Part shown: positions 1 to 64,000 of the stretch, piece by piece
Numbering within the stretch: the stretch's first letter is position 1
How the letters are laid out: every line of letters begins with the position of its first letter
Assembly: GCA_027603945.1 (NCBI GenBank)
Contig: JADIIU010000011.1
Location: 62,001 to 126,000 of the forward strand
Origin: Terramyces sp. JEL0728
Lineage: Eukaryota > Chytridiomycota > Chytridiomycetes > Rhizophydiales > Terramycetaceae
Length of the DNA stretch: 64,000 bases
Reading direction: 5' to 3'
The notes under the pieces: model-generated
Databases searched by the model: none
Told to the model about the DNA's origin: nothing
The model's input: only the letters and a program-made list of their open reading frames with translations
Program-made: the position numbers and the translations under genes

Positions 1-635
1 CAAGCAATGTACTGTTACTCGGACAATCGCGGGAGAGAAACCGCACTGGATTTGTATATGACATCTGTTACAGGTGGAATTCACGAAGCGCTGATAGAGA
101 AATCTCCTTCCTATAAAAATTGGAAAGTAAAATATACTTAATTAAAGTTGAATCAACATGAAAAACATTTCATGGAGTTGACAAAAGAAGAATTTCATCA
201 GAATAACAATGCACCGTTGGAATTCTGTTACCTGACTGCCGATTCACCGAATGTAATTGCCGATTTAGATCCAAACACAATTTATATTGTAGGCGGGATT
301 GTGGACAAGAACAGGCACAAAGGACTTTGCTTTCAAGAAGCAGAAAAGTACAAGATTGGGCATGGAAGACTTCCTATTGGAGAATACATAAAGCTGGGCA
401 CCAGAAAAGTACTGACAATCAATCACGGTATTTTAGATTAATTCTAGTTGTCGCGATCATGGGCGAATACGTTAATCACAAAGATTGGAAGGAAGCGTTT
501 CTGAGGATCTTGCCTGCGAGAAAAGGTGCAGCAGCCAAAGAAGATAATAACAACTCAGCTGAAGATCTGCAGAGCTTGTCGGAAGTCGATGATGAAAAAC
601 ACGAAAATTCAGAAAGTGAAATAAAGGAGAAATAA
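1..635 (+). CDS. TRM10: tRNA (guanine-N1)-methyltransferase TRM10 (5' end outside window)
   Basis: SAM-dependent SPOUT methyltransferase that makes m1G9 in tRNAs. About 197 residues of the catalytic domain are visible. Seen directly: the family hallmarks [23 protein letters not shown] and ARLPI-like [21 protein letters not shown]. Reading across two introns, 127-147 (21 nt) and 428-447 (20 nt), restores the family sequence (…SYKNWK/LNQHEK… and …TINH/VVAIMG…DWKEAF). The last roughly 35 residues are acidic and lysine-rich, as in other family members. The start codon lies left of the window. The next gene starts 219 bp downstream on the same strand. Identity is secure from several colinear motifs; target position (G9 versus A9) cannot be read from sequence. 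Confidence 0.93.
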
Positions 636-854
636 ATTACATCCGCAAATATCGCTGTTTTATTACATTAATTCTGTAGGGGCGAATATCCGTTTAGTCT
701 GGCTTAACAATGACAAGCTTCGACAATGTGACGTGTTGATTTGACACTTTTTCAATTTGTAATATACATTTGACTTGCCCCACAAGTAATGTGGAATTCA
801 CAAGAGGATAAAGTAAATCGCACCGTATAACATTAGAAAAATAAAAGCTTCACA

Positions 855-3910: not shown

Positions 3911-3952
3911 ACTTATAATAAATTGTAATTAGAATATTTTTGACGCGTTTGA

Positions 3953-5551: not shown

Positions 5552-5567
5552 CAAAGGTTTATTCTGG

Positions 5568-7248
5568 TTATAATTTTGCCAAGTTTTTCTTGTCCATATC
5601 TCTCAAAATCCTTCTCAAGATCTTTCCAGCCGCGCTTTTTGGAATTTCATTGATAAATTCAACACCGCCTCTCAACCATTTGTGGTAGCTTGTTTTTGAT
5701 TCAATGTACTGTTGAATTTCCAATTCTGTCGCCTTTGCCCCAGGTTTTAGGACTACATAAGCCTTTGGGATTTCACCAGCAGCAGCATCTGGACGAGGAA
5801 TAACAGCAGCATCTGCAATTGCAGGATGTCCCAACAGATACGATTCAAGTTCTGCAGGAACGACTTGCAAACCTTTGTATTTAATGAGTTCCTTGATACG
5901 ATCAACAATGAAAAAGTAACCATCCTTGTTGACTCTTGCAACATCGCCAGTGTGCAGCCAACCGTTAATAATTGTTTCTTTTGTTGCTTTTTGATTGTTC
6001 AGATATCCTTTCATGATATTTGCTCCGCGAAGACACAATTCTCCTTCTTGGTCATACCCTAATTCTTTGCCATCAGGATCAATCAATTTAGCCTGAACAC
6101 TAGGAGCTAAAATACCGATGCTTCCAGGAACAATTTTTTCCATTGGGTTTGAGTGAGTCAATGGAGATGTTTCAGTCATACCATAGCCTAAAATTAAAAT
6201 AACCAACCTTGTTTAATAGGAATGCCCAGTCTCTTGGTGAATTCTGCAGAAACTTCGTTTCCTAGCGGTGCCGCACCACTCATAGCGAATTTGACAGTCG
6301 ATAGGTTGAATTTGGACACGATAGGATGCTTAGCCATGCCGATTGCGATTGGTGGGACGATAAACAGGATGGTGACTTTGTAAGTTTGAATCATCCCCAA
6401 GAAAGCTGGCAAATCAAATTTGGATTGAACAACGATAGTGGTGCCTCTCCAAATAGCAAAATGAAGGAAAATATTCAAAGCATAAATGTGATAGAACGGC
6501 AGTACACCGATTGTTACATCATTCCCGTCCATCTTTTCAAAAGCAGTCAATTGATGAACATTGGAAACAAGATTGTCGTGGGTAGTCATTACACCCTTGG
6601 AGCGGCCTACAATTAACTATAAATACCAGTTGTACCAGAGGAGTAGCAGAGATAGGCTGTATCTTCCTTCAGCTGACGCTCTGTGAATTTTACAGTTGGC
6701 AAACTGCCGACTTTTGTAGAACCCAACGCAGCCAATTCATCAATAGACAAGTGAGAATCAATTTTTTTCAATCCAAATACAAATACTCTAGATTTTGGAA
6801 TTTTTGATTGAGATCCAGCTTCAAGCGCATTTGCCAAAACTGAATCATGACTGAAAATATATTTTGCACCTGAATCTTGGAGTTGATAGGCGAATTCAGA
6901 AGCCAGATAGTTTGGATTTGCTGTAGTGACGACAGCCCCAAGTCTAATCGCAGCATAGAGGACAACTGGATATTGAATGTGATTTGGAGCGTAAATTGCA
7001 ATAACATCTCCTCTCTTGACGCCAATTGAGTGCAGATATGCAGCTAATGAGGTAATTTTGGTCAAGAGTTGGCCATATGTGTAAGTTTCATTGGTAATAC
7101 CGTCGATTAATGCGGGTCTGTTGATCCTGTCGTCTGGGAGTTTACCATCAAAAAACACTGTGGAAAATGTATCCTTGAATTGATAGCGGATTGGAGGAAA
7201 TGAGGAATTAAAAATCATGCTGATATTTTGGAAAAATAACCCAGTCAT
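5568..7248 (-). CDS. 4-coumarate-CoA ligase-like / acyl-CoA ligase with peroxisomal signal
   Basis: ATP-dependent acid-CoA ligase of the adenylate-forming family, about 546 residues, normal length. Motifs in order: P-loop YSSGTTGRSKGV, YGMTETSP, the GWLHTGD motif, DRIKELIKYKGLQVVP hinge, and PKSAAGKILRR containing the catalytic Lys. The P-loop and the YGMTET motif are each interrupted by a 20-nt intron (6607-6626 and 6188-6207); splicing restores both exactly. The protein ends in AKL, a PTS1-like tripeptide, so a peroxisomal location is likely, as for plant and insect relatives. Substrate (fatty acid, coumarate-like or luciferin-like) cannot be decided. It lies 67 bp upstream of nothing shared; NUP82 follows on the same strand. 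Confidence 0.92.
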
Positions 7249-7315
7249 TTTATCATGTGGAGGCGCAGATAAGCCTTTTGGCCGAACGGAATAATTATGG
7301 GCAATTATTTATTTA

Positions 7316-9554: not shown

Positions 9555-9585
9555 TGAGATTGGTTTTGTACTTGACAAAAAAATT
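9555..9585. promoter_or_regulatory. 31-bp divergent intergenic region between NUP82 and NSUN5
   Basis: Only 31 bp separate the two divergent start codons. There is no TATA box. Any core promoter elements must overlap the coding sequences or be bidirectional. Confidence 0.6.
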
Positions 9586-10920: not shown

Positions 10921-10925
10921 AGTTA

Positions 10926-14207: not shown

Positions 14208-15112
14208 TTAAATTGCAACCAAGGTTTGTTCACCTTCCCAGGTTCCACCAGGCGACAGTTGTACTGGCCCTGCAACGTTCCCAACTTCAACACAAATCAT
14301 GTTCAAATATTCTATGTTATAGCCAATTACCTTCGTCGCCGAAATCAGCCATTTTTTTGGCATTCTCGATCCAAGGATTCCATACAACCACATCCTTAAA
14401 GTTTGATTTGGAAATAATGAATCCGGAACCAATTTGAGTGTTTTCAATTGTCAAAATGTTGTTGGTTACATTTTGATATACTCTGTCTACCTCGCCAGCA
14501 ACAGCGACACCATGTCTTGATTCAGTAGAAATCAAGTTGTTATTGATTGTGTCTTCCAGGGTGTATCCGGTTAAGCCAACAACCTTAGCCTTGATAACAT
14601 CCTTTACGCGAATATAAGTATGCAACAAACTGGTAAATTCAAAAGGTCCAGAACCAGCATTATTTACATTCAACTTTGTTTTTAGCGTGTTTCCGATAAG
14701 TGTAACGGTGTACACCAATTTGAAATCGTGAGTCCATAGCTTTCTTTGAGATTCAGGGACAGCGTCTGGCTTCAGTCCAAAAGATACAGTTAATTCAGAT
14801 GCGTTTTCGGTGGATACGCCTAACCAATCCCATTTTGACACTCTGGCGAATCCGTGCTGCGGCAGAGGTCCTTTAGGTCCAAATTGAGGGAATACTATCG
14901 GACTAGGATTAACATTGATTACATTCCCCCTCGGATCGCTTTTGGTCCATCATAGTTGGCTTTTGAACTTAATTAGCAATCAATTACCTGACGAAAATAC
15001 GCTCTTGTCCATCAAACACCCAACTAGTGAGTGTAGCTCCAAGCAAGTAAATTTCCACGGTGGATTTTCCGTGCCTGAGTATAACCTTGTTTGCAGATTG
15101 TTCGACTGGCAT
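14208..15112 (-). CDS. Glucose-6-phosphate 1-epimerase (YMR099C-like aldose epimerase)
   Basis: Interconverts alpha and beta glucose-6-phosphate in the cytosol. About 281 residues, normal length. Visible: GATLTSWVFDGQERIFVSS, the RGGI(S)PIVFPQFG motif, LPQHGFAR containing a catalytic His, FTSLLHTYIRV, the NVTNNI region and the C-terminal GPVQLSPGGTWEGEQTL. Introns 14968-14987, 14903-14922 and 14312-14330. I chose ATG 15112 (MPVEQSANKVILRH), which matches the usual family start; the frame stays open to an ATG at 15175, giving 21 extra residues of no obvious value. Convergent with FOL1, 29 bp between stops. Confidence 0.92.
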
Positions 15113-15757: not shown

Positions 15758-16369
15758 TTAAAGCATATGGTGGTGGTGGTGTCCATGGTGGCCTGGGTTA
15801 TTGTTTACGTAAATCACTTCTTCAATAACCTGTGGTTGTTGCGAGTAACCTTGAACCACCTGTGGGAATTGTTGATGGTGATGTCTATTTTCCATGTGAG
15901 CAAGTCCTTCACCTAAAAAGACACCACCCAGTAGACCAGCAGCAGCACCAGCTAAACCAGTAGCCATTGGGTTACTCATTGCATTGGCAATAGTGGACTG
16001 TTGCTGAGGCTGCTGCTGTGGATACTGCTGTGGATACTGTTGGCCAGGATACTGGTTTGGTGCTCCATATGGTTGCGATTGAGGTTGGTACTGATAGTTT
16101 TGTTGGGGCTGTCCTGGATAAGGAGGTGGGTTTCCTTGACTAAAGATACCTTTGTCAGTACCACCTGGAGCACTTGGGGCCATTTGAGGAGATGAAAGAT
16201 TTGGAGCATTTAATGGAAGAGCAAATTGCGTTCTTGGATCTTCCCATTGACTAGCACCAGTCTTTGTGTTCACAAAGAAGTTTCTTTGATATTGAGCATT
16301 CCATTGGGCAATGAATCCATCTGGTAGCGGAGCTTGTGCAGGAGCTTGAGCTGGTGGAGGATAATTCAT
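15758..16369 (-). CDS. WW domain / glycine-zipper protein, copy 1
   Basis: About 203 residues, single exon. Residues ~12-42 form a WW domain (LPDGFIAQWNAQYQRNFFVN, then TGASQWEDPR with both tryptophan-type positions). Then a Pro/Gln/Tyr-rich low-complexity stretch (PYPGQPQQNYQYQPQSQ), a glycine-zipper segment (ATGLAGAAAGLLGGVFLGEG) of the kind that packs in membranes or oligomers, and a His-rich tail ending in a run of His. WW domains bind Pro-rich ligands, and the low-complexity part contains PPPY, so self-association is possible (inference). A paralogue follows 115 bp upstream. TATA box at 16391-16402; AATAAA just after the stop. Confidence 0.75.
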   Translation of the reverse strand: MNYPPPAQAPAQAPLPDGFIAQWNAQYQRNFFVNTKTGASQWEDPRTQFALPLNAPNLSSPQMAPSAPGGTDKGIFSQGNPPPYPGQPQQNYQYQPQSQPYGAPNQYPGQQYPQQYPQQQPQQQSTIANAMSNPMATGLAGAAAGLLGGVFLGEGLAHMENRHHHQQFPQVVQGYSQQPQVIEEVIYVNNNPGHHGHHHHHML

Positions 16370-16390
16370 TACTGGTGGTAGGTTTCTCCA

Positions 16391-16402
16391 GCCAATTAAA
16401 TA
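16391..16402 (-). promoter_or_regulatory. TATA element of WW gene copy 1
   Basis: Minus strand TATTTAATTGGC, 22-33 bp before the ATG. The same TATWTAATTGGCTG block precedes copy 2, so the promoter was duplicated or conserved with the gene. Confidence 0.6.
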
Positions 16403-16484
16403 CTTTGAAAGGGAACAATGAGCGCGACTGAGGGGACGGGAGAAAACAATGATTGCGGACAAGAAACATACAATTGCAAATATA

Positions 16485-17237
16485 TTACCAATCGTTATCA
16501 TAAACAACTTCTTCAACTACATTGCCATTGTCAAAGACTTCAACTACTCGATCGCCTCCCCAGCCGTTGTTTTCGACTATTATTTCTTCAACATTGTTTC
16601 TTCCCCAGCCGTTGTTTTCGACTATTATTTCTTCAACATTGTTTCTTCCCCAGCCGTTGTTTTCGACTATTATCTCTTGCACATTGTTTCTTCCCCATCC
16701 ACCGTCTAGAAACCCATGATGATGTTGATGGTGGTGCCTATTTTCAACCATTTCTCCTAGTAAGAATCCACCAACACCGCCTGCAGCTAAACCGGCTAAA
16801 CCAGCAGTCATTGGGTTCATTCCAGTCTTTGGCTGTGGAGCTGATTGTTGATATGGTTGGTTATTGTACGGCATTTGGTTTGGAGGAGGCTGAGGAGAGG
16901 GTTGTCTGTAAGGACCTTGAGGTGGATAAGGTTGGTTTGAATATGGTTGCGGTGAAGGTTGGTTTGAATATGGTTGCGGTGGAGGTTGATTGTATGGTTG
17001 GTTTGGATATGGTTGAGGAGAGGGTTGTCTGTTAACTTGGGGAGACTGGGTTGGATAAGGAGGAGGACTGTTTTGGTTAATTGGAGAGCCATATTTGTTT
17101 TCAGGAGGAGGACCTGGCGGTGGTTGAATACGAGGATCTTCCCATTGACTCTTTCCTGTCGCTGTATTTACATAAAAGTATCTCTGATAATTTGGATCCC
17201 ATTGCGAGACGAAATCTGGAGGAAGTGGTTGATTCAT
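16485..17237 (-). CDS. WW domain / glycine-zipper protein, copy 2
   Basis: About 250 residues, single exon, the tandem paralogue of copy 1. Same order: WW domain (DFVSQWDPNYQRYFYVN, GKSQWEDPR), a Pro/Gln/Tyr-rich region with repeated QPYSNQPSPQPY-like units, a glycine zipper (AGLAGLAAGGVGGFLLGE), a His-rich stretch and then, unlike copy 1, an array of 15-residue repeats NNGWGRNNVEEIIVE before an acidic end. The tail of copy 1 (VIEEVIYVNNN) resembles one degenerate unit. Function unknown; the low-complexity middle and zipper suggest an assembling or membrane-associated protein. Confidence 0.75.
   Translation of the reverse strand: MNQPLPPDFVSQWDPNYQRYFYVNTATGKSQWEDPRIQPPPGPPPENKYGSPINQNSPPPYPTQSPQVNRQPSPQPYPNQPYNQPPPQPYSNQPSPQPYSNQPYPPQGPYRQPSPQPPPNQMPYNNQPYQQSAPQPKTGMNPMTAGLAGLAAGGVGGFLLGEMVENRHHHQHHHGFLDGGWGRNNVQEIIVENNGWGRNNVEEIIVENNGWGRNNVEEIIVENNGWGGDRVVEVFDNGNVVEEVVYDNDW
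16562..16696 (-). repeat. Three 45-bp tandem repeats (15 aa each)
   Basis: Units start at 16562, 16607 and 16652. Two are identical at the DNA level and the third differs at a few positions, pointing to recent expansion. Each encodes NNGWGRNNVEEIIVE or a close variant. Confidence 0.95.
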
Positions 17238-17261
17238 AACTTGCAAAGTTGGAAAAACACA

Positions 17262-17273
17262 GCCAATTATATA
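17262..17273 (-). promoter_or_regulatory. TATA element of WW gene copy 2
   Basis: Minus strand TATATAATTGGC, 25-36 bp before the ATG at 17237, matching the element of copy 1. Confidence 0.6.
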
Positions 17274-17643
17274 GTTGGACGCACAGCCATAAACAATCTG
17301 AGTGGCCTTTGACTTTAACGAACTTTGCCAGAATGCGTTTGGTTCAATAGCCAAGGTCGCCATCAGCGGAATCGGAGTGCATGAATATTAAAAACATATT
17401 CACTAAAGACGCTCAATGACTAAATTCTACGAAAGGGGCTATCCTAGTACCTACCAAACAAGATTCAACCTGGAATACTTTTACATTGTGTGGAAAACCC
17501 GGCAATTTAACCGCAATATCGATAGCGGCATGTACAAACTAACGTATATTGAGAATCACTCGAGTCAATTTTTTACGGTACAATTTGATATTTGTGATAC
17601 TTTGAAACCCTCAACCTGCCGAATTTCCACCGACTGAGAAAAC

Positions 17644-33325: not shown

Positions 33326-34898
33326 ATGTTTAACCGAAGCATTAAACGAGCACAACAGACAGCAATGCATTTGAGAGTACTTGTAATATTAAGAATAGCA
33401 TTTCAGTACCCAAGAAACCCCAAGCGTTCACCACATGAAAAGCCAGTCAGTCAGAAATTTTGTTTTGGATCGTCCTGCAGCATTAAACGCTTTGAATTTG
33501 GAAATGATTTACAACATTACTCCGCAATTACAGGCTTGGCAAGAAGCGGATTTGTGTAAAGTTATTGTTCTATCCAGTGCACCAGGATCTCGAGCATTCT
33601 GCGCTGGCGGTGATGTGAAGCGTAATAATATCATAAACCTTAGAGATTGTTATCGATGCAAAAGAATCTTTGGCAGGAGTACGCAAAGGCGCACAGTTTT
33701 TTGAGCTTGAATACAAATTGAACCACCTAATTGCAACAACAAAGAAACCATTCGTCAGTATCCTGGATGGAGTTACCAGTACGTAATGTTAATGATAGTG
33801 GGTGGTGGTGTTGGTTTATCTGTTCACGGCCATTTCCGAATTGTTACTGAAAACACTTTGATTGCTATGCCTGAAACCAGCATTGGTTTATTCCCAGATG
33901 TAGGCGGAAGTTTCTTCCTCCCTAGAATGGACGGAGAGCTTGGAACATTCATAGGTCTTACTGGCCATCGATTGAAAGGGGAAGAAGTTTATATTTCTGG
34001 GTTTGGGACTCATTTTGTTCCTTCCTCAAGAATCCCAGCATTGATGGAAAGGCTTGGGGAATTAGAAACTGATGAGCTAGATGTGGTCAACGCGGCCATT
34101 GACGAATTTTCTGGAGAGCTTAGTGCAGATCAGTTCAAAAATTGGACTTTGGGTGGAAAAGTTGGCGATTTAATTGACCGCTGCTTCAGACACTATACAA
34201 TTGAAGAAATTATTGCCTCATTGGAAGCAGAAACTCAAAATGCTGACGAACAGGTAAACTTTTTTTTACACTAGCTTGCAGCATTTGCCACTAAACAACT
34301 GAAAGTTTTAAAAGCAGCGTCTCCCACAAGTTTGAAAGTCACTTTAGCCCAGCTCAGACGAGGCGCTAGAATGCATATAGCTGATTGCTTCAAGATGGAA
34401 TATCGCCTTGCCCAACAATTTTTAGTTACTCCAGATTTTCTGGAAGGGGTTACCGCAAAGTTGATTAATAAGACCAGTGCGGTTTGGAATCCGTCTTTTG
34501 ACAAGTTGTCGTCCATCACTGAACAAGAAATTGATGAAAAGTTCTTTGGAGAAAGAGACACTCCAGATTTGGAGCTATACAACAGACTGTCATACTACGA
34601 CTATCCACACCGCACCCTTTCTGGTTTGCCTACCGATAGAGATGTGTTCCGTGTTGTCAATGGAGAAGGAAGGCGGGGGGCGAGGACTGCCAAACCCAAC
34701 ACTAAATTGGAAGTAATGGAGTGGATTAAACAAAACTGGGGTAGATATGATACAGGAGTAGTTGGAGAGATTCATATTCCAACAATGAATACGCTAGACG
34801 GTGGAAGGGGCAAGGGCAAAGTAGGTTTATTGGAAAAGGTGCAAGCGATTTTGGATCGTCATGCTACTGAAACTAAAACTGGTATTGAATGGCGTTAG
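33326..34898 (+). CDS. HIBCH: 3-hydroxyisobutyryl-CoA hydrolase (EHD3/mS47-type)
   Basis: Crotonase-family hydrolase of valine breakdown, about 495 residues. An Arg-rich presequence (MFNRSIKRAQQTAMHLRHFS) points to mitochondria. Visible: NFVLDRPAALNALNLEMI, RAFCAGGDVK, the GGGVGLSVHG oxyanion block, and MPETSIGLFPDVGG carrying the catalytic Glu and Asp. The fungal relative is also mitoribosomal protein mS47. The ~100-residue C-terminal region after the crotonase fold (LEVMEWIKQNWGRYDTG…) is consistent with that double role, which is inference. Introns 33377-33398, 33622-33643, 33779-33798, 34254-34274. Confidence 0.93.
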
Positions 34899-35390: not shown

Positions 35391-37324
35391 TTAGAATCCC
35401 ATTTCTTCGATGTGATCTAGCACCGCAACATCAATGTCATCTTCTTCGTCTTCCATCATATCGGGGCGTTTTGATAACAACGGCGGATTCATTATAGCAC
35501 CCCTTCTGGCGGCAGTATAGTACAATTCTGTATATGTTCTAATGTATAGCCTTAATACCTCCCACTGTGTCCACCTTTTGCAGTAGTATTTGATTTTTGG
35601 GTAGCGGTCAAGGACTTCCAGCAGGTAAGCTCTTGGCAGAAAATTGCATTTGATGTCAGTAAGAGCTCTGCATTCACATGCTTTGATGTTTTCTCTCAAG
35701 GTTGACAGACCGATCATACTACCGCTCGGGTATACTCTACCTTCCACTGCAACAATCCCTTGTTCAATGTAGTAAATCCCCTCTAACCCTTGGAGATAAA
35801 GCATGTTGTTGGCCGGAATCATCTTCTTTTCTATTCCCTGGCATACATCTTGGATAAATTGCGGCTGTGTATCACAGAATATTTCTAAAAACGGAATTTG
35901 AACAATAAAATCAAGATAAATTTCCATGGCAATAAAGCTGTGCAGCTGTTTTGGCAGTTGGTGCAGCAGATGCATTTGCCTGTGATTTGCAAGCGACGTA
36001 AAGTGATCCGACAGATGGTGAAAAACCTGATATGAGAAAAGAATACTGTATATTTCAACCTATCGTCCAATCGGAGTTCATCCAGCATTTTTAAATATTC
36101 ATCCACCAAAATATCTTGCTTCCTGCTGAGCTTTCCTGTCAAATTTACAATACTAGCCAGCATTGCAATAATGTATATGCCTATAATATACACAATAAAG
36201 TTTGTGCAGAACACATAAATGTACTCTCTCAAACAGCGAGGCTCCAAAAAACTTCCCGAAACACCAACCAGAGAAACGATTCCAGAGCTCCAGTAAACAG
36301 AAATAAAATAAGCATCTAAAATCGGCACAACGGTAACATTGCTTGAAACCGCGTAATAATCCAGCCAACCGAGAGGATCATCGGGAGAAGTTGCCGATCC
36401 TACGAGTCTGAAACCACATGCAAGCCAATGGATTGCAAAAATTATAATAAATATAATCTACATTAGCTACTAGTACCTTCAAAAGTTCCAATGTGGCATA
36501 CCGTAATCCAGACGCAATCTGGGCTTGCTTCAACTTTCTACTTGCCCTGAAAACACGCAACAGCTTCAACAAACGAAACAGTCTGACAAACCTTAAAATT
36601 TTCAATGTTGAAAGATTAGTAGCCTTCATCGGGAAAATATAGTTCATATACTCAAAAGGCAACACAGACACTAAATCGAGCACAAACCATGAAGCCAGAT
36701 ATCTGGTTGCAATGACGGAACTGTCCAATACCAGCTTACCGGTCCTTGCATCTCTATATGGTGTGCGAATTTGAACAAACATATCCAGAAAGAAGATCAG
36801 ATCAACAAATCTGTTCAGTAAAAACAGCGTATCGATGTTTACTGCTCCGTTCGAGTTGGTATCAATAAATCTGTGGTTAAGCCCAATAGTTACGCTGTTT
36901 CAAAAGGGGTGACAGAAGCTGTAAAGAACAACAACAAGAGTGCCAGCGCGTCCCAACGTTTCAAGAATGGTGTTCCGAGCTCTAGAGGCCCATACCAGAG
37001 ATTCTTTTTCACGAAAACATCATATTTATCTTCAGGCTCGGCATGTTCTTTGAGATAAAGGGGAAGGTTGTAGTTCTTGTTTCTAACTACCCTCCACTTT
37101 TTATTCCGCCCATAATGCACTTGTTGAAGATAACAGTCGCCAGGTACAAGTAATTCCTCTTCTTCGTCGATTGGTACTAAAACATCCGTGAGGTAATTCA
37201 TCTTTTCATACCAAGTGTGTTGTGCTATTCTATCCACTTTAACTTTATCAATTTTGACCCTCATCATAGAGTTTTCTGAAGCCGATTTCCGGTTCGAGCT
37301 TCTTCCAATACTTCTTGCATCCAT
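35391..37324 (-). CDS. Voltage-type cation channel with C-terminal cyclic-nucleotide-binding-like domain
   Basis: About 623 residues, six-helix architecture of the HCN/KCNH/CNG superfamily. S1 near residue 130, an Arg-rich S4 (TLKILRFVRLFRLLKLLRVF, about 230-250), S5 (IIFIIIFAIHWLACGF), a pore loop with YFISVYWSSGIVSLVGVSGS, S6 (NFIVYIIGIYIIAMLASIVN), C-linker, and a CNBD-like fold (~460-540). The selectivity-filter position reads SLVGVSG rather than TVGYGD or the CNG-type TIGE, and the phosphate-binding cassette lacks the usual Arg-(Thr/Ala). Introns 36871-36893, 36458-36476 and 36027-36046. Ion preference and ligand dependence cannot be predicted safely. Related channels serve zoospore signalling in flagellated fungi. 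Confidence 0.85.
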
Positions 37325-45880: not shown

Positions 45881-45892
45881 CACTTGAAAATA

Positions 45893-47644
45893 TTAAGCCA
45901 AGCATTTTTCCTCTTCGCTACTATTGGAAGTATTTTCTGTTGCTTGACTGACAGTTGAAGGACGATCTCCACCGATAGGTTCGAAAGATCCGCGATCTTC
46001 TTCCCCTTTGGCAATTTTGTTCCCAATTACAGAGTGGCGGTATCCATATCCAAAATAAATAACTAGTCCGATGATTAGCCAAATGACGATTCGCCAAATG
46101 GACGAAACTGCTGCCTGGGAGATCAAAAACAAGGTGCATGCCGCTGACAGTCCAGGGATTACGTATCCGCCTACAATAGGACCTCCAGGAATCAAGAAAC
46201 CTCTCTTTAAATCGGGATTAGTAATTCTAAGGACAATTACACTCACTGAAACCAAAAAGAACGCAAATAACGTGCCCACGCTCGTCAAATTTCCAAGCAA
46301 ATCCACTGGCAGTAACGAAGCTAATATTGCACAAATTAAACTGCTGGTTAAAGTAGCTGCATAAGGAGTTTTTCTAGTCGGATGGATTTTTGCAAAAAAT
46401 GGAGGGAATAAACCGTCAATCGACATTGCTTGAAATATTCTAGGTTGTCCTAACAATGATGTGAGCAAAACAGATGTTAAGCCTGCCACTGCTCCAACTT
46501 CTGTGAATATTGTCAACACTCTATAGCCATATTGTCGCACTGCACCAGCAACTGGCGCGTTCAGATCAATGACAGTATAATTCTGCATGCCTGTAAGAAC
46601 TAGACACACAGAGATGTATAATAAAGTACAAACCGAAAGCGATCCAATGATGCCAATTGGCAGATCTCTTTGGGGGTTAACAGCTTCTTGGGAAGCAGTA
46701 GTAACAGCATCAAACCCTATATACGCAAAGAAGACCGTCACCGCTGCACATTAGTTAATAGTACTTGCTTCAAGAATCCCACTAGCACCATATTGTCCAC
46801 GAACACCAGTGTTTGGCGGCACCAAAGGGCTGTAGTTTTTTGGGTTGATGAAATTAATTCCAAAGAAAATAAAAGTAAGAATAACCACTAATTTGAGCGC
46901 TACCATAGTGTTGTTGAAGATTGCAGATTCTTTAACGCCAGTAATCAAAATTCCCATTGCAACCAAAATAATTACCAGTGCAGGAACCTAGATAAGTTAC
47001 GAATTACGTTAATGATAGCGTTGCACAATTTCTGATTATCCCATGGGCACACCACTTGGTTCGAATAAAATCCAGCTGAAGCCGCATGTGTGGTATTTGA
47101 CCATGGTAAAGCTTGCCCGTGTTCAATCCAAACAAATGGAGCGTTAATGAATCTTTGGTCAAACATATTATCATTATTAGCGATATCTTGAACTAGATAT
47201 ACAAAATAACCCGACCAGCCAACAGCAACTATGGTTAACGAACTTTAACCTGTTGCGGCCCCAACCAGATATTCCAGCATTAGATCCCATCCTATAATCC
47301 AAGCTATGATTTCTCCCAGAGTAGCGTAGGTATATGAATATGCAGACCCAGACACTGGCAGAGTCGACGCCAGTTCCGAGTAACATAGACACGAAAGTGA
47401 AGAAACTACCCCAGCGATAATGAAGGAAAATACTATTCCAGGTCCAGCGTTTTCTCTTGCTGCTTTTCCAGTGAGTACAAAGATCCCAGCTCCAACAATA
47501 TTGCCTGGTTAGCGTGCATATACCTATCCCAAGACAGACAAGATCAAACGCTTTCAAAGTCTTTTTGTATTCGCTTTTTTTTGTATCTGCTTCGATCATG
47601 GATGGAGGTTTCTTTGCGAATAATCGCTTCAAAAACATTCTCAT
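45893..47644 (-). CDS. Cationic amino-acid transporter-like permease (APC superfamily)
   Basis: About 556 residues and roughly 14 membrane helices. Visible: the first-helix motif GIGNIVGAGIFVLTGKAA, ENAGPGIVFSFIIAG, CYSELASTLPVSGSAYSYTY, WIIGWDLMLEYLVGAA, FFAYIGFDAVTTASQEAVNP, DLPIGIIGSL and a conserved late block YAATLTSSLICA. These are hallmarks of CAT-type (animal/bacterial-like) transporters more than of the yeast amino-acid permeases. Substrate not provable from sequence. Introns 47505-47523, 47229-47249, 46988-47007, 46744-46764. Confidence 0.9.
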
Positions 47645-47869: not shown

Positions 47870-50800
47870 TTAATTGAGACTGGCCCTGCTGATAGCCTTT
47901 TGAATCTTTTCATGTCTGATTCTTCTTGGATCTGCAAAGTTGATAATGGTTGGCGGCTGTCGTCTTTGATTAGAGCTGAAGTTTGTAAATACATGTTCAC
48001 GCAAGCGAAGCCATCTCTCGCTGGGTGAAATATTGGCTTCAAACGCAGATCGGGATGATCTAGAGCTCTTTTGGCTCATTGTTTCTCCAGCTCGAACAAC
48101 TCTGCCATCAGCGTGCCTAAATCCACGAACAACACTGACTTGTAACCTAGTTGTTCTTATGGCCCTCTTCCATCGTTCAGTGGACAATGTTCTATGAACT
48201 GATATCTCAAGGTGTGTATTGCGATCAACCGCCAGTTCATCAACTTCCACAATGCTTGGTAGTGTTGCTGTGGAATCTACAGATTGGGATTGGCCTTTAG
48301 TATCACCTGACGGAGCTTCAGTGCGTTCAAAGTCTGGCATCAATCTAATCAAAAATCCAACCGGTAAACTTCCGAATCCTGCCAAAACTGAAATGCCCCA
48401 GTGAGCAGCAGATAGCCCTTCAGGTTCTAGTTTAAAGAATAATCCTGCAAACTCGACAATAATAATTTGACAAATAACTGATATCCCCAAAATAAACAAA
48501 AAGATTTTGTTTTTGTGAATACCTTTGAAGACATTAAGATCTAAAATCAATGAAACTGTTACCTTTTGAGATGGATCTGCTATTAATTTCGTTGAATATG
48601 TTGCAGAAAATGAAAGCATTAAAGACAATAGTAGAGGTAGGATATCCTTGTTCAGGTGTTTCATTGTCAATCGTTCCAATTGGGAACCAAGAAGGTCCCA
48701 AAAAGTACAAGAACAAGCAGATAAACACTTGGTAAATAGCTTGTCCAATCATCTGCTTCTTCATACTGTGAGTAATAAGCGATTCATCCTTTTTGGATGG
48801 TTTTCTGTTCAACAATTCGTCAGAGGGAGGGTCGGTCGCTAATGCTAAAGCTGCCATTGTGTCCATAACCAGGTTGACCCATAATAGCTGTACCGCACTC
48901 AAGACAGACTCTGGTTTTCTGTCATCGGCAATGGTGGTGTAAATGGAGGTGACAATGGTAATGACAGAAGCACTGATATTCACTGTCAACTGGAATTGCA
49001 AAAACTTTTTGATTGCATCGTATACACAACGCCCCCAAACTACTGCTTTAACAATTGATGCAAAGTTATCATCAATCAATATAATATCAGAAGCCTCTTT
49101 TGCAACTTCGGTGCCAGCAATGCCCATACTGAACCCAACATCAGCACTAGTTAAGGCAGGGGCGTCGTTAGTACCGTCACCAGTAACTGCCACAGTTTCG
49201 CCTAATCTCTTCAGGTTGTTCACAAGGATTTGCTTATCCAACGGCGAGCTTCTGGCAAGGACTTGCAGCTTTGGCAAGATGCGGTCCATCTTCTCTTGGC
49301 TCAGCGTGCGGAATTCAGGTCCTTCCATTACAATACCGTCAGCAGAGAGGATGCCACACCCTCTTGCAATAGCTTTTGCAGTCTCGATACCATCGCCAGT
49401 AACCATCCGAACACAGACACCAGCGGCTTGACATTGGGCAACAGCATTTGGAACTTCAGGACGAAGCGGATCAAGGATACCAAAGATCCCAACCAAAATC
49501 AATTCTGAATCGTCATCAATTGTTTCATCGAAAAATCCTTCTCCAGCTCTAACCGGTTTGATAGCTGCACAAATTGTTCTGAGGGCTTTTCCTGCAAACT
49601 CCTTGATATAGGCATTGTACTTTGCTTTTTCTTCATCGTCCAATACAACAATCTTTCCATCCTTGTTTACAGTCCTGTGACACTGCTCCAACACGATTTC
49701 TGATGCTCCCTTTACAAAGATGCATTCAGCGATATCTTCCTTGGAAATCCCCAATAACTCTGGCAAGAGCTGATCAGAAACTTTTACCAAACAAGACATT
49801 CTTTTTCTTGCAGACGAGAATGGCATTAGCGAAACAATATTGGTATCTTTTCGATCGCTTTCATAGTCGTATCCTAACAATTTGGTGAAATCCAAGAGTG
49901 CAATTTCCGTTTTTGAGCCTTCCATTACAGATTTTCCATCTTTAACAGTCATTGCAGCAGAAGAGTTTACGTTCAACGATTTAGCGACAAATTTCAAAAC
50001 TTCAGAGCCGGATTTCAAAGATTCAATTTCTTTTTGTTCAAATTTAGTCTCCAACAATACACCTTCGACGACAGTCATTTTGTTCAATGTTAAGGTACCG
50101 GTTTTATCTGAGCAAATGGTGGTTGCATTACCCATGGTTTCACAAGAAGCCAAGTGACGAACAAGGTTATTGTCTTTAAGCATTTGCAAAGTAGCATGGG
50201 CGAGGGAGAGGGTAACGGCTAACGGCAATCCTTCTGGAACTGCTACGACAACAATGGCGACAGCCAAAATGACAATATTCAGCATAGCTTCAGCAAGCTC
50301 AAACGACTGATAGTTGCCTGCATGCAGGACTAGATACAACACGAGCAGTAATAAGATAATCCCAATTGCGCCATAAATAGCATATTTGGCAATGTCGTCG
50401 GCCAATCTTCCAAGTTTTTGCTGTAATGGAGTATCTTCTGGCTCGACATCCAGTGCCAACATGGTTTTGCCATTCAAAGAGTGGATACCGGTAGCAATAA
50501 CAAGCATCTTGCCGACACCGTTGTTGATTGATGTTCCGGAAAGCATGAAAGGGTCGCGGACAAAATCCTTCTTTACGGCATGCGGCTCTCCAGTCATTGT
50601 GCTTTCATCAGCTTCAACATTGTATCCAGATATCAATAGTCCATCGGCAGGCACTACCACACCTTTATTAGCGCCAATTACCTGTTTCAACTACGACAAT
50701 ATCCCCAACGACCAAGTTTTCAACGTTAACCATTTCGGTTTCGCTGTTTCTTAAGACTTTGATCGTATTAAAGGATTTTCCAAAGTCATTCAGTTCTCTA

Positions 50801-55897: not shown

Positions 55898-55943
55898 TAC
55901 ATGTATTTACGATATTGCCAATATATTTTATTCATATGTAATA

Positions 55944-56892: not shown

Positions 56893-57011
56893 ATTTGAAT
56901 TTTGAGATGAGAAACAAAAATCAAGAGTGGGAGATGAAAATACTTGCGTCTTGAATGTGCAAGATCGACATTGTTATTGGGTGACATCATTAGAATTTTT
57001 GACTTTACGAA

Positions 57012-58991
57012 ATGTCAGGCCCACGAGCTGAATTCCCTTTCTTGCCAGGAAACTCTTTTACCGACGCTAGTGTAAGTAGATAATTAATGCAAGAAACAAG
57101 ATTTCAGAAAACCACACTCTCTTGGGTTTATCAATGGGTATCCTGTCCAACCAAAGCCAAACCTTGGGATTGGACTCGAAAAACTAAATATTGACGCATC
57201 TCCTTCCGAAGAAGAACTATTGAATGCAATTGGGATTGACCAACAAATTTACGGAGAAAGGAGGTATTTCAATAAGAGTAGAACGGCTGGATTTGTACCG
57301 GCACATGTCGCGTTTGACAAAGTCGTAAGCTGTCAAATAACGTTAGGTGTTAAGATTTGATGGTTACTTTAAACAAACCGTCCATGAATCGAAAGAGCAA
57401 TTTCACCTTCGAAAAGTTCGAATTCTTTACTTTTTGGAGGATGATTCGATTGCTGTGGTGGAACCTCCTGTAGAGAACTCTGGCATTCCTCAAGGAGTCT
57501 TGATCAAGAGACAGAAACTTCCAAAGTCTTCTTCAGAGTTTTACAAGGTTTCCGACTTTAATATTGCTCAAAATGTTACTTTCTACGGAAAGACCTTTCG
57601 AATAATCTCTTGCGATAAATTTACTGAAGTAGCTGTTTTCTCATATTAGAAATACATGCGTGAAACGGAGGGTATTGCTTTGAATGCAAAAGAAGAGATG
57701 CCAGTTGATCCACACCAAGAATCACGCGTCCGTCCAGCCAGAAAAACACCTGTTGCGTCTGAAAAGAAAGACAAGTTGAAGAGATTCCTAGAGAAAGATA
57801 GAAAGGTTTTGCGGTTCTATTGTATTTGGGATGATCGATACTCTATGTTTGGGGAACTCAGAGAATTTGTAAAATATTCTTATTGTAGGTTTTGCACTAT
57901 CATCTAGTGGATGATTCAATTGAAGTTCGTGAAGTTCAAAAGCCAAATAATGGCCGCGACCCATTCCCTATTCTTTTGAGAAGACAGGCACTGCCAAAAG
58001 TATTTAAAGAGCTTTCTGATGTTTATGAAAGTGAGATTTACACCTGGAAAGATTTGCATATTGGAGCGTGCATCAATGTTTTAGGAAGACCGTTCTTGAT
58101 GTATATACTTTTAATGGTAGTCGTGACTGCGATGAATATACAAGACGGTTCTACAAAGATATGGTTGAAGTGGGAGAAGATGTTAAGGTGCAGGCTGAGC
58201 AAGCTATTCCGTTAGACAATGAAGGCCCATCAAAACACGAACAAACACTCCCGCCATACAATGGATTTGGAACTGTAGAGGACTCTTTGGGCTCAGTCAA
58301 ATACTTGGTATTAAAACCTCCAAAGAAGGATTTCATCAAGATGCTTGAAAATGAACACAAAATCCTTAGATTTGTAGCTAAAATGGTGCGAAATGTTTGA
58401 CTCTAGGAATCAAAGCACAAAGAAGACCAAGATAGGAGATTCGTCATAAGTTACAGATTAGCCGATGATATGATGACTATTTACGAGCCTCCGCAGAGGT
58501 AATTGGGCGATAATTATAGAAATGCTGGCATAATTGGGGGTAAATTCATGGAACGCACAAGAGTGCTTCGACCAGGATCTTCCTTATCAGATCCACAAGG
58601 CCCATCCTACTATGATGCCACAGATTTGTACATTGGCGTAAAAATCAAAGTTCTCAGCCATAAATTTGTATTGGTTGATGCAGATGAGTTTGTGTTCAAC
58701 TACATGGAGGCAGAAGGAGAAAGATTTAAGCTATCCAATTCTCCAGCTGTCCGCGCAAAAATTACAAGGCTAATCAGCAGCTTGTCAAAGGAGGAAATAG
58801 AATCGATGAGAAAGGCACTCAAAGCCCATGATCCAACGAACAGTGGAGTTGTGGACAGACATGTGTTGATCAGCATTGCAAAGAACCAGTTCCCTGGAAT
58901 ATTGACCGAGCAGGAGATTATTACTTTTTCTAGATGCTTTGAGCAAGTGGTTCGCAAACCAAATTATGTTAATTTGTTGAATACAGTCTGA
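57012..58991 (+). CDS. EFHC1/2-type axonemal protein with three DM10 domains
   Basis: About 610 residues. Start MSGPRAEFPFLPGNSF resembles the EFHC N-terminus. Three DM10 domains follow: VLRFDGYFKQTVHES with VRILYFLEDDSIAVVEPP; VLRFYCIWDDRYSMFGE with LVDDSIEVREVQ; and ILRFVAKM with FVISYRLADDMMTIYEPPQRN. The C-terminus has a degenerate EF-hand (AHDPTNSGVVDRHVL). EFHC proteins (Rib72 in Chlamydomonas) are inner-junction proteins inside doublet microtubules, found only in organisms with motile cilia, so this cell probably builds a flagellum. Seven introns: 57072-57093, 57325-57346, 57629-57649, 57869-57888, 58101-58120, 58386-58406, 58499-58519. Confidence 0.93.
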
Positions 58992-59060
58992 TTGAAAGAT
59001 AATAAAAACTAGTGTACTGTTTATTCTATAACTACGACCTGCTAATCAGTTTTCCATAGA

Positions 59061-62000
59061 TTAACTCTCGGCTTCCTCTACCGTCAGTTCAGCATTTTCT
59101 TGTTCCTCTCCATTGCTAACTATTCCTTGCTCTGATGAATTATCTCCTTTCATGTGATCTATGGTTAGTTAAAATTACGAATTTGCCCAAGCTTGGTTTC
59201 TCCGTATGCAAACAACCCAACTCCCCCGATTGATAAAAGGGCAAACAAAACTGGGACCGCCAATGCATATGATGCAAAGTAATTTGAATAAACAATACCA
59301 GTGACGATCGCAAGAAAGGCGGTGACAACAGAACCTCTTCCCAAGTACCAATGAGCTTTGTCCCACCACGGAATTTCGGTTCTGTCCATCGAGAACAACC
59401 TGTCGCTAACAAACCCAAGGATAACCTGACAAATCATTGCAATGGTTACTAACAAACCTAATAGGGGGTGCAAACTTGGCGACACTGAAAAATGTGGGCC
59501 AGTTTTGAACAAGAATATCAACAAAAACGCGGATAAACTTCCCAGAGCACAACCGAAAAGCATAATAAAGACATGCAGCCTGAACCACCACACACCGAGA
59601 TAATCTTTCATATAGCGAGCAATAAACACACCAACGAACGGACAGAACACCCACGCGTATAGCATAACGTATCCGTGCAGACGAATGACAGTCGAATATT
59701 CCACTCCATCTGGAAGCGTGAGGATCGATCCTCCGTCTCCATTTGCATTACCAGTTCCCGCGTGGTAAGTAGTAAAGTCAAGATTTCCTAATTTACCAAA
59801 CTTATCATGAATACTGAATGAGGAACTTGGATCATCAGGATTTGATGGAGCACTTCCGCATAAGGCATAAATAAACTGTGTGTCAGTTTTGTAAGTGATA
59901 TCATTGGTAGAAAGAGGTCTTTTAATGGTGACCGCTAGTTTCGCCCAACTTGGAGCATTAACCCTGAGAGCCACTACAGCTGAATAGGTTTCGGTTGATT
60001 GTTGTGGCAGAGATTCGCTTTGGGAAATTCTGTCAGAAACAGTGTAACCGCCGTAAGAGTTTTTCCATGCAACAATCATCGCCGACCCTGTCATAGAAGA
60101 AGATGTTCCAAGGGCAACCCAGCCACTGTAGGATCCATGTAGTGTAATGTACACACCACCATATCCATCGGGCTCAGAGTAGACGCAATATGTACCGTCT
60201 ACACATGTGGAACCGATCAAGCCATTATTTGGTGGGGAAGCAGTGGGGTTTCCCCCATTTGCAGGGCTTGCGACACCCGGACTTTGATCTGCGGTGCCAT
60301 TATGGACTGTGGTAAAATCCAAAACTCCCAAATACCCTCTACCAGTATGGATATTAAAGTTACTGGATGCCAAATCTGGATTGTTTGGTGGGGAGGTGGA
60401 AAATGCATAGATATAGTCAGACTGGGCTGTGAACACATAGGCTGCAGTTTTCAATGGCATCAAGACAGTAAACGCTAACTTTGCCCAATCTGGCTGAGGA
60501 ACTTTAAGATCGACAACTGCTGTTGCCTGGACACCCATTGGGGGCAACATTTCACTGGAAGATACCCTATTAGATACCACATAATTTCCTTGCGAGTTCT
60601 TCCATCCCACGATCATGGATGAAGACGACATGTCTTTTCCTGTCCCTGAAATTAACTAATGCTTACCAAGAGCAACCCATCCACTAGCGGCAGACAATAG
60701 GGAAATGAAAACATTTCCTTTCCCGTCAGGTGTTGAATACACACAGTAAAGATTAGGAATACACGTAGAGCCAACTCCGTTATTGATGGCTGGAGCAGAA
60801 GGAGTACTACTCGAACCAGATGTCCCGGCGCCAGTGTGAACAGTGGTGAAATCCAAAATGCCAAGATATCCTCTTCCTGTGTGCACCGGGAATGAGCTTG
60901 CAGGAGAATTAGCGTCTGAAGGCTTTGATGTTGAGTATGCATATATAAAATCGGTGTGTGGAGTAAAAGAAACATCAGCACCTTGTAATGGCTTTAGCAC
61001 AGAAAAAGCAAGATTAGCCCAGTTAGGTACTGTTACACGTGTATCAACTAACTGTGATTCTTGAGTTCCCATAGTGGGCATAACTTCACCCGAGGCTTTA
61101 CGGTCTGATATTATGTATTTTCCTTGAGCGTTTTTCCATCCAACAATCATTGAAGAAGATGCCATACTTTTGCCAGTGCCTAATCCAACCCATCCAGATG
61201 CAGCAGAGAGTAATGTGATATAAACATTTCCCTTTCCATCTGGTTCGGAATACACGCAATAAATATCTGGAATGCATGTCGAGCCTACCCCTCCATTGGC
61301 AACAGCTGGGTCTCCTGGGGCTATTTCTGGCGGTGTAACAGCAACTGTGCCTCCATTTCTGGTTGTAAAATCCAAAACACCAAATTGGCCGCGAACATCG
61401 TGAACAGGAAAGTCGCTGCTAGCAGAATTTGGATTCGACGGTTTGGAGTCGGAGTATGCGTAAATATATTGAGTAGTTGAAGTGATTGGACCGTCGGAAG
61501 ATTTCAGCGACACTGTGAATGCAATATTTGCCCAAGAAGGCGGCGGATGAGCAAGAGACACAAGAGTAGATATGGTGCTGCTTACAGTGGGCATTGCTTC
61601 CGCTTTTGAAGATCTATCAGTGATTGCCACTTGACCTGCAGAATTTACCCATCCAACAATCATTTTCGAATCATGCATGCTGTTTCCAATGCCAATCCCT
61701 ACCCAGCCATTTGCAGAAGAGTGAAGAGTAATCAACGTGTTGCCGTTTCCATCTGGTTCGCCATAGATACAGTATTGGTTTGGTATGCACACTGAGGTCG
61801 ACAATCCAGTTCCTCCACCGTTTGGTACAGGAATAACTGTAGGAGTTGGTACAACGGTGGGAATTGGAATCGTTTTGGTTATAGTTGAAGGTGTTGATGA
61901 CAAGAAATCAAATTGCCCAATCACACCTGCACCATTGGATGCATGGCTTGAGAAATCCGATTTTGGAGAATCAATATTCCTTGGAGGTACTTGGCAGTGA

Positions 62001-64000
62001 GCATAGATATAGCTGGTCGTAGAGGTAAATGTACCGTCTTTGTTTTGGATCGGTTTGCTGAAAGAAAACCCAAGAGCTGCCCATGACGGCATCGGAACTC
62101 TCAGAGGGACGATTTTGGATAGGATTTCACCCGACGCAACAGGCATAACAAAGTCCTTTGAAACTCTGTCTGAAATGGTGTAGCCCCCATTACTATTTTT
62201 CCAACCAACAGTAATCGCGCCGTCAGTCATACCACTCCCGGTTCCAATAGCGGCCCACTATCATTAGTAAGATTTACCCCTTCCAATGCTGAATGAACAG
62301 TAAAGATGATATTTCCTTGGTTGTCATTTTCGCCGTAAATACAGTACTGTTGGCCAACGCAAATGCCATTTTTGCCGCTAGATACAGGCGTAGCCGATGG
62401 AGAGCTGGTTTCAATAGTTGGCGACGCAGTAGTTACTGGATTTGATGTGCCACCAACAAAATTAAGTGCTCCAAGTTGTCCTTTGGTTCGGCCATGACCT
62501 TTGAAAACCGCGCCTGGATCATCAATGTTTCCAGTTGGAATTTTACTACTGTAAGCATAGAGCCACTGAGTATTGCTAGTGATTGTGTAATCAACAGAGC
62601 TAATTGGACGAATGTAAGAGAAAGCCATAGTAGCCCAACTTGGAGCAGGATATTGGAGTGGGATAAGTTTGGATGCTGGATTGCTGCTTACGCCTGGTAA
62701 TGAATCAGCGGCTGCAATGCGATCACTGATTGTATATCCGCCAGTAGAGTTTTTCCAAACCACGACGTCTTTCGATCCAATCATGGTGCTTGAATCCGCA
62801 CCTATTCCTATCCATCCTAGCGCAGCCGAAAATACAGTGAAAATAATATTTCCAGCACCGTCGGGCTTTCCATAGATACAGTAGGAAGTGTCGACGCAAA
62901 TACCAGCTATACTCGGAGTAGGGGAGGAAATAGGAGCTCCTGTTGAAGTAGCGGTAGAAGGGGCCGGTTTATCGACAAAATCCAATACATCAAAGTACCC
63001 CTTGTCATAGTGTTCTAGAATTCGACTGCCTGGGTTATCGATATTCCTCTGGGGAGGATTTTGACCCAGCGCATAGATCCAACTGGATTTACTGCTAAGA
63101 GTAACATCAGAAGCTTGGATTGGTCTTGTAAAGCTAAATGACATTTTGCTCCAGGCGGGTGCAGGATATTGTAAAGGGATTATCTTTGATACTTGGTTAA
63201 CACCAACTGTCGGAGACACGTAGTCAGTTGCGTATCTATCACTGATGGTGAACCCGCCAGTGGAATTCTTCCAAACAATAACGTCGGTGGAATTAACCAT
63301 TCCGGTGCCAATACCAACACCAGTGTATCTATTATTAGGAATGCCCTACCCCTGCGCCGAAGAATGAACAGTAATCATCACATTTCCTAGTCCGTCAGGC
63401 TGACCATAAATGCAAATGGTAGTGCCTACACACTTTCCTGCAATAGATGGAGGCTGGACAGGAGTAGCTGTTGGAGAAGGGGTAGTTGCTACAGGCTTGT
63501 CAACAAAATCTAGAACGTCCAGCAAACCTTTATCGTAATGTTCAAGTATTCGGGTTGCAGGGTTATCAATATTTCTTTTTGGGGGACTATGCCCAAGCGC
63601 GTATATGTAGCTGCTGGAACTGGTCAAGTTAACATCAGCAGATATAATTGGTCTGCTGAAAGAGAAAGACATGTTACTCCAAGCCGGTGCTTCAATTTGC
63701 AACGGTACAATCTGAGATACAAGGTTATTGCTTACAGCTGGAGATACATAGTCGGTCGCAACTCTGTCACTAATCGTGAATCCACCAGTAGAGTTCCTCC
63801 ATACAATGATGTCCGTCGAGTTAACCATGCCTGAACCAACGCCTATAGCAGTCCATCTAAATTAAAACCAATCTACCCTGGTGCAGATGAGTGTACGGTA
63901 AAAATAACATTTCCATTTCCATCAGGTTGCCCGTATAAACAGATTGCTTCTGTTCCAATGCACTTTCCATTTATCGGTGGGGAAGCTCCATCCTTGGTCC
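59061..64000 (-). CDS. Tandem-DOMON cytochrome b561 protein, at least eight haem domains (5' end outside window)
   Basis: More than 1600 residues read without the start. Eight DOMON repeats, each ~155 residues, open with C-x5-C then (I/V/L)Y(G/S)-x-PDG, followed by GWxxxGxGxxM, WKNSxGG, ISDR and a late His before LDF. Every copy keeps the Met in GxGxxM and the His, matching the Met/His haem-b ligands known from CDH-type DOMON cytochromes. The C-terminus is a cytochrome b561 core with five or six helices and the expected His residues (RLHGYVM, WFRLHVFIM, SLHPLLGL, DKAHWYLGR), then a short acidic tail. Introns 63857-63876, 63329-63349, 62258-62277, 60646-60666 and 59159-59178. Likely carries electrons across the plasma membrane. 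Confidence 0.92.

Follow-up and report, generated by a model that had tools for sequence, protein, structure and literature searches.

How short can a nuclear spliceosomal intron be, and are the many interruptions of about 20 nt that divide the genes of a chytrid contig introns at all? The question is raised by a window of 64,000 nt, the whole stretch of DNA analysed here (bases 62001-126000 of contig 11 in the assembly of Terramyces sp. JEL0728), in which gene after gene is crossed by GT...AG segments of 18-23 nt. We conclude that these segments are very probably real nuclear U2-type spliceosomal introns of this fungus, pressed against a lower size limit that would be set by two spacings, one between donor and branch and the other between branch and acceptor. 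The features that appear to carry this conclusion can be read in the DNA itself: the size class, the GTA donor, the fixed YTAAY branch, the use of the first AG as acceptor, the orientation of the signals with the genes, their occurrence on all 21 contigs sampled, and the correct joining of protein segments.

Host genome, sample and gene finding

The assembly comprises 15,016,339 bases in 231 contigs. Within the window, where GC content is 0.38-0.45 per 4 kb, ARAGORN detected no tRNA and Rfam gave no match at gathering level. The open reading frame at 48534-50690 (minus strand) matches HDV01_000664 of Terramyces sp. JEL0728 at 100% identity, its next-best matches being Boothiomyces sp. JEL0866 at 89% and then other chytrids, and two further window gene models match Terramyces proteins at 99% and 94% identity. 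The fungus-like host that an earlier note on this window had deduced is, on the evidence of the identical protein, a chytrid indeed (Fungi, Chytridiomycota, Rhizophydiales, Terramycetaceae). Terramyces is a free-living soil fungus that can be cultured. The prefix JEL is a culture collection code (PMC7537106).

Genes were sought in the window and in 10 kb from each of 20 other contigs, together 264 kb of the 15.0 Mb on 21 contigs, by dynamic programming that scored codon pairs on both strands and permitted GT...AG introns. The GT and AG ends were imposed by the models, which places GC-AG and AT-AC introns outside the scope. Splice matrices described donor, branch and acceptor, the branch matrix having been started by hand as a YTRAY-like motif and then re-estimated. 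A call was regarded as frame-required if keeping the intron would shift the frame or introduce an in-frame stop; 144 of the 658 calls were not and were dropped before counting, which left 514. The final run, from which these 514 calls come, used a learned length prior that is biased towards short introns, a bias from which the flat-length runs are free. When the calls in three genes were checked against homologs, 13 of 14 frame-required calls proved right, as did 0 of 4 other calls.

A single class of ultrashort introns

With no splice motif at all and a flat prior over 12-60 nt, 34 of 56 introns fell at 19-22 nt. Extending the flat prior to 12-300 nt left 22 of 58 in this range, and 26 were scattered over 61-300 nt at about 0.11 per length. 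When trained motifs were combined with a flat 12-120 nt prior, 19, 86, 140, 75, 34 and 12 calls were made at 18, 19, 20, 21, 22 and 23 nt, respectively (366 of 690 calls), and every other length within 12-40 nt received 1-9. In none of the flat-length runs over the 264 kb did a second peak or a distinct class of longer introns appear.

Under the learned length prior, 436 of the 514 frame-required introns measured 18-23 nt, comprising 117 of 131 in the window and 319 of 383 in the 200 kb from the other contigs, where each 10-kb sample held 6-33 of them. At least one was present in 132 of the 163 genes of at least 100 codons. What the 264 kb contain is, for nearly all introns, a uniform ultrashort class, a few nt wide and below about 25 nt; if the sample is typical, extrapolation from 436 introns in 264 kb suggests that the genome would carry about 25,000 of them. 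For the window as a whole, the result of the gene finder is as follows.

1..64000: 41 gene models with, in all, 117 frame-required introns (GT-AG, 18-23 nt; 18 nt, 1; 19 nt, 32; 20 nt, 49; 21 nt, 21; 22 nt, 11; 23 nt, 3)

This agrees well with the earlier note, which had placed 107 introns of the same sizes here with a similar length distribution (18 nt, 1-2; 19 nt, 26; 20 nt, 47; 21 nt, 19-20; 22 nt, 10; 23 nt, 3). Its wording that every resolvable intron is this short applies to nearly all but is too strong. The remaining 14 candidate introns among the 131 window calls lie scattered at 16-17 and 24-114 nt. The possibility, raised in the same note, that most genes elsewhere in the genome have longer introns was not borne out in the 20 samples of 10 kb from 20 other contigs.

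Splice signals and their spacing

Independently of any intron call, we searched the predicted gene spans (233,780 bases) for every GTA with a YTAAY downstream and, 4-7 nt past the branch A, a first AG. In the sense orientation the branch A stood at positions 14, 15 and 16 in 109, 66 and 22 cases (197), against 0, 1 and 0 cases in antisense (1). Position 13 gave one case in either orientation, and the remaining positions from 7 to 45 gave 0-12 in sense and 1-5 in antisense. Introns recognized in this way occur on all 21 contigs. The abrupt step from 1 case at branch position 13 to 109 at position 14 suggests a measurable physical limit.

We read the anatomy of the class from those frame-required introns that are 17-24 nt long and score well on the motif (412). 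Their donors are GTA in 353, GTT in 38, GTG in 19 and GTC in 2; at donor position +5, T (175) precedes A (94), G (92) and C (51), so that G is not dominant, and T is favoured at +6. A G at +5 is the usual partner of U1 and U6 and dominates this position in most eukaryotes. The branch A is fixed with respect to both ends: in 330 of the 412 it lies at position 14 or 15, and in 336 the last G follows it at a distance of 5 or 6 bases. AT content reaches 69% in these introns versus 60% in coding sequence. The commonest branch pentamers, determined with an earlier program version among 261 motif-selected introns, are TTAAT (93), CTAAT (57), TTAAC (34) and CTAAC (30), and in the same version the acceptor was the first AG past the branch in 254 of 261 strong introns. 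For the branch, which the earlier note described as TTAAY or CTAAY, the consensus is YTAAY, to which the variants YTRAY and YTTAY have to be added.

Of the introns that measure 18-23 nt and have their branch A 4-7 nt from the end (377), 323 have 4 or 5 nt between donor position +6 and the branch pentamer, and 330 have 3 or 4 nt between the branch A and the AG. Two spacings, each constrained by itself, thus add up to the intron length, and the one between donor and branch has a sharp lower edge. The YTRAY-type branch, complementary to the branch-binding sequence of U2, places the introns in the U2 type, the GT and AG ends having been imposed. Hallmarks of the U12 type are the donor GTATCCTT or ATATCCTT and the branch TCCTTAAC; the introns described here are not of this type, since their GTA donor continues mainly with A, T, T and a C precedes the branch pentamer in 10%.

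Excision joins conserved protein segments

Spliced proteins of the EFHC1, cationic amino acid transporter and PMCA-type Ca-ATPase genes were each aligned with their best 120 database matches, the deposited protein included, and a junction was judged by the number of covering homologs that are gap-free over six residues on either side. All 13 introns in the three genes join conserved segments, and at 12 of 13 junctions at least 90% of the covering homologs are gap-free, the exception being 57629-57649 (52 of 119). The C-terminal end of the EFHC1 model was left out of the resolved part.

57072..57093, plus strand: 22-nt intron, EFHC1; in deposited model P0121; 110/117 covering homologs gap-free
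57325..57346, plus strand: 22-nt intron, EFHC1; in deposited model; 118/120 gap-free
57629..57649, plus strand: 21-nt intron, EFHC1; in deposited model; only 52/119 gap-free
57869..57888, plus strand: 20-nt intron, EFHC1; in deposited model; 118/120 gap-free
58101..58120, plus strand: 20-nt intron, EFHC1; in deposited model; 120/120 gap-free
58386..58406, plus strand: 21-nt intron, EFHC1; in deposited model; 118/120 gap-free
58499..58519, plus strand: 21-nt intron, EFHC1; in deposited model; 113/120 gap-free
47505..47523, minus strand: 19-nt intron, cationic amino acid transporter; in deposited model; 120/120 gap-free
47229..47249, minus strand: 21-nt intron, cationic amino acid transporter; in deposited model; 118/119 gap-free
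46988..47007, minus strand: 20-nt intron, cationic amino acid transporter; in deposited model; 111/116 gap-free
46744..46764, minus strand: 21-nt intron, cationic amino acid transporter; 119/120 gap-free; 48-nt intron with common donor in deposited model
50663..50681, minus strand: 19-nt intron, PMCA-type Ca-ATPase; in deposited model; 115/115 gap-free
48541..48562, minus strand: 22-nt intron, PMCA-type Ca-ATPase; 97/107 covering homologs gap-free; 85-nt intron with common donor in deposited model

When the three deposited Terramyces proteins were mapped to the DNA, 11 of their 13 introns were identical to our own calls (19-22 nt); such introns are therefore already on public record. In four more genes of the window, ten frame-required introns each lie within one unbroken Pfam stretch.

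6607..6626, minus strand: 20-nt intron, AMP-binding domain gene; Pfam stretch 36-396 spans residue 200
6188..6207, minus strand: 20-nt intron, AMP-binding domain gene; Pfam stretch 36-396 spans residue 333
14968..14987, minus strand: 20-nt intron, aldose epimerase gene; Pfam stretch 10-277 spans residue 42
14903..14922, minus strand: 20-nt intron, aldose epimerase gene; Pfam stretch 10-277 spans residue 57
14312..14330, minus strand: 19-nt intron, aldose epimerase gene; Pfam stretch 10-277 spans residue 247
36871..36893, minus strand: 23-nt intron, ion channel gene; Pfam Ion_trans stretch 123-380 spans residue 144
36458..36476, minus strand: 19-nt intron, ion channel gene; Pfam Ion_trans stretch 123-380 spans residue 275
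33622..33643, plus strand: 22-nt intron, enoyl-CoA hydratase/isomerase family gene; Pfam ECH_2 stretch 23-337 spans residue 78
33779..33798, plus strand: 20-nt intron, enoyl-CoA hydratase/isomerase family gene; Pfam ECH_2 stretch 23-337 spans residue 123
34254..34274, plus strand: 21-nt intron with in-frame stop, enoyl-CoA hydratase/isomerase family gene; Pfam ECH_2 stretch 23-337 spans residue 275

Two further calls within those Pfam stretches, 36131-36148 (18 nt) and 34449-34472 (24 nt), are not frame-required and were left uncounted. Outside the window, seven introns of the U2AF65, SF1 and RBM39-like genes (contigs 2, 39 and 19) fall within a single continuous alignment to solved chains.

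Depletion of lengths divisible by three

Only 34 of 206 motif-only introns have a length divisible by three, compared with 53.2 expected if the two spacings are independent (p=0.00025; 20,000 permutations, window and 20 contig samples). An in-frame stop is present in 27 of these 34, versus 22.0 averaged over phases, a comparison that carries no significance figure. We take the depletion as a sign of translation-dependent quality control; mis-splicing seems to be kept in check by translation. In Paramecium, the same pattern has been read as selection through nonsense-mediated decay (PMC5014332).

Spliceosome components

The U2 small nuclear RNA (snRNA) was found at 140 bits with its branch-binding AGUGUAGUAUCUGUUCU (GUAGUA) intact. 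SF1 is present with its SF1-HH and KH regions (2e-56 to a solved chain), as is U2AF65 with RRM1, RRM2 and UHM (9e-62 to a solved chain; one false intron call was left out of the gene model), and both genes are themselves interrupted by 19-20 nt introns. U2, SF1 and U2AF65 of Terramyces are conventional. Of the snRNAs and splicing factors that the earlier note had proposed to compare, these three are in place, and U6 is without an acceptable match.

The same holds for U1 and U4 in the whole assembly, although an empty search does not show absence. Normal U6 carries ACAGAGA and normal U1 carries ACUUACCU. Two 22-base U6 core patterns, allowed up to 3 mismatches, had no match in 15.0 Mb, nor had a 105-base U6 consensus in a DNA search of the genome. 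The best two U6 covariance matches (27.4 and 26.9 bits) were rejected, as they lie within a duplicated 3.1-kb segment that looks coding-like by eye; this segment, the source of the false U6 matches, exists in two copies on contigs C199 and C111 that are 98.9% identical. A genome search for RED_N, made with no positive control, yielded no candidate, the U1 and U4 searches likewise being without a control. In human cells, a set of short introns depends on SPF45, a protein with G-patch and UHM that takes the place of U2AF65; in Terramyces the only match to an SPF45 query (again with no positive control) was a UHM on C19 that is part of the RBM39-like gene. Possible accounts of the non-detection of U1, U4 and U6 are that their genes are missing from the assembly, split by introns, or diverged.

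How introns of this size may be recognized

In the human B complex, a 17-nt U6-donor helix and a 14-nt U2-branch helix are separated by a 15-nm gap equivalent to about 21 nt, which sets the donor-to-branch minimum without structural change at about 52 nt (PMC6692369). The donor-branch spacing of Terramyces is far below this value and too short for the human geometry. With the branch A at nt 14 or 15 instead of about 52, the U6-donor and U2-branch helices would therefore be shorter, coexist only after rearrangement, or be accommodated in a differently shaped complex. At the other end of the intron, human U2AF65 recognises 8-9 nt of the pyrimidine tract (PMC8363638); because the 3-4 nt after the Terramyces branch leave no room, U2AF65 would hardly be able to use a polypyrimidine tract.

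We propose that the lower size limit would be set by two separate spacings, with the branch A at nt 14 or 15 and 5-6 nt before the last G. The branch would be read first by the conventional SF1 and then by U2 with its unchanged branch-binding sequence, and the acceptor would simply be the first AG downstream. U2AF65 might be recruited through protein contacts or bound elsewhere, and early assembly might proceed via shorter helices, a different complex shape, or sequential binding. A more radical form of the proposal, namely that the early spliceosome has been rebuilt, with the +5 G lost, U2AF65 no longer reading a tract, U1, U4 and U6 diverged past the family models, the U6-donor and U2-branch helices never together at human length, and a hard floor of 13 nt from donor G to branch A, we consider unlikely. 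The Terramyces spacing is at odds with the geometry of the human B complex, and this conflict is open to direct test.

Alternative readings

Several observations weigh against the interpretation of these segments as ultrashort introns handled in this manner. The introns are known here from sequence alone; the gene finder over-calls, 5 of its 18 calls in the three checked genes being unsupported; and its branch matrix began as a hand-set, YTRAY-like motif before re-estimation. In addition, 78 of the 514 frame-required calls, themselves candidate introns, fall outside 18-23 nt, the model itself favouring short introns, and 214 of the 690 calls in the flat 12-120 nt run exceed 40 nt, compared with 366 at 18-23 nt. 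Lastly, the empty searches for U1, U4 and U6 leave part of the machinery unexplained, and the choice between shortened helices and a changed complex shape would be drawn from spacing.

The alternative that survives best concerns the machinery: the short introns may be handled not by conventional snRNAs but by a remodelled donor-reading set of diverged U1, U6 and U4. The mixed donor position +5, with G in only 92 of 412 introns, points in this direction, as does the finding of U2 next to the missing matches for the other three. However, the empty snRNA searches are no proof of absence, U6 may be missing from an assembly in 231 contigs, and the commonest Stentor intron, GUAAUUUUUAUAUAG, also has no +5 G even though Stentor U6 conserves ACAGAGA (PMC9505925). 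We therefore regard a remodelled set as unlikely.

It is more improbable still that frame-based finding overlooks a sizeable class of ordinary, longer introns which the genome holds beside the ultrashort ones. Such a class could be suspected from 36 frame-required calls above 30 nt, from the 214 flat-run calls above 40 nt, and from two deposited introns of 48 and 85 nt (46717-46764 and 48478-48562). Yet the flat-run calls show no second peak, numbering 45, 39, 34, 32, 25, 29, 21, 20 and 14 per ten lengths from 31 nt; since those above 40 nt are distributed evenly enough over 80 lengths to form no peak, we regard them as noise. Both deposited introns, moreover, keep the donor of a short intron and choose a later AG, and the residues that they skip are gap-free in 119 of 120 and 97 of 107 homologs, respectively. 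Gene predictors thus mis-annotate genomes of this kind, having here replaced 2 of 13 short introns by longer ones that drop conserved residues, and the public annotation of the Terramyces genome may hold many such acceptor errors.

That the segments are instead excised DNA elements (like the internal eliminated sequences, IES, of ciliates), assembly errors or programmed frameshift sites, each of which would yield short interruptions of reading frames, is hardly credible, as the motif is oriented with the gene (197 sense versus 1 antisense at positions 14-16), the segments carry a U2-type donor, branch and acceptor, 11 of 13 were treated as introns by the depositors, and the assembled DNA retains them.

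Other genes of the window

Two further loci were noted by eye. On the minus strand at 59009-63970, a large gene holds one unit (GSTCIPNLYCVYSEPDGKGN... type) repeated many times in tandem and, after the repeats, a hydrophobic tail; the repeat unit is possibly DOMON-like, and the tail resembles a cytochrome b561 region. At 15758-17363, also on the minus strand, two adjoining genes with a WW-like motif and with proline/glutamine-rich and histidine-rich tails are apparently a tandem duplicate.

Comparison with known ultrashort-intron genomes

Genomes with ultrashort introns are known from heterotrich ciliates (15-16 nt), mikrocytids (16-17 nt) and the chlorarachniophyte nucleomorph (18-21 nt) (PMC10245619), which extends the few lineages listed in the earlier note, for instance by the mikrocytids. 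Among fungi, a survey of 644 genomes names Cryptococcus neoformans, with a mean of 63 nt, for its relatively short introns (PMC8476143). Like those of Terramyces, the C. neoformans introns are fungal, many and short, but they are about three times longer (PMC8476143). We found no report of introns such as those described here from fungi in the open-access literature, subscription papers and preprints being outside that search, which makes it weak evidence of novelty; the intron passages of two chytrid genome papers give no lengths (PMC13391722, PMC5364385). A fungus with 20-nt introns thus appears, on this slender basis, to be unreported, whereas the kind of genome, one with ultrashort introns, is already known.

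The closest comparison is with Stentor coeruleus and other heterotrichs, which share with Terramyces uniform tiny GT-AG introns, a donor beginning with GUA, AU-richness and a fixed branch A (5 nt before the end in Stentor), and homologs of U2AF2 and U2AF1 have been reported in Stentor (PMC9505925). The two differ in that the Stentor branch A lies at position 10 of 15 and is described without a strong consensus, whereas that of Terramyces lies at 14-15 in a strong YTAAY (PMC9505925). Moreover, Stentor is a ciliate with introns of 15-16 nt for which all snRNAs are reported, and Terramyces a fungus with introns of 19-22 nt for which only U2 was found (PMC9505925). Stentor nevertheless faces the same spacing problem with all snRNAs and many proteins retained (PMC9505925).

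Mikrocytos mackini resembles Terramyces in having numerous introns within an exceptionally narrow size range (16-17 nt), but it is an obligate parasite with a highly reduced spliceosome, in contrast to a 15-Mb chytrid genome with SF1 and U2AF65 (PMC10245619). The nucleomorph of Bigelowiella natans, at 18-21 nt, has nearly the Terramyces size range; it is, however, the relict nucleus of a green alga inside another cell, with about 300 genes, and not a full nuclear genome (PMC10245619, PMC12316389). In Paramecium, as in Terramyces, introns of a length divisible by three are under-represented and rich in in-frame stops, but Paramecium introns are longer, at about 25 nt, and again those of a ciliate (PMC5014332). 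The uniformly tiny introns known before belong to ciliates, to a parasite among the rhizarians and to the relict nucleus of an alga, all far from the model spliceosomes; with a chytrid whose SF1, U2AF65 and U2 are recognizably conventional, one can ask how small a spliceable intron may be in the same kingdom as the yeast models.

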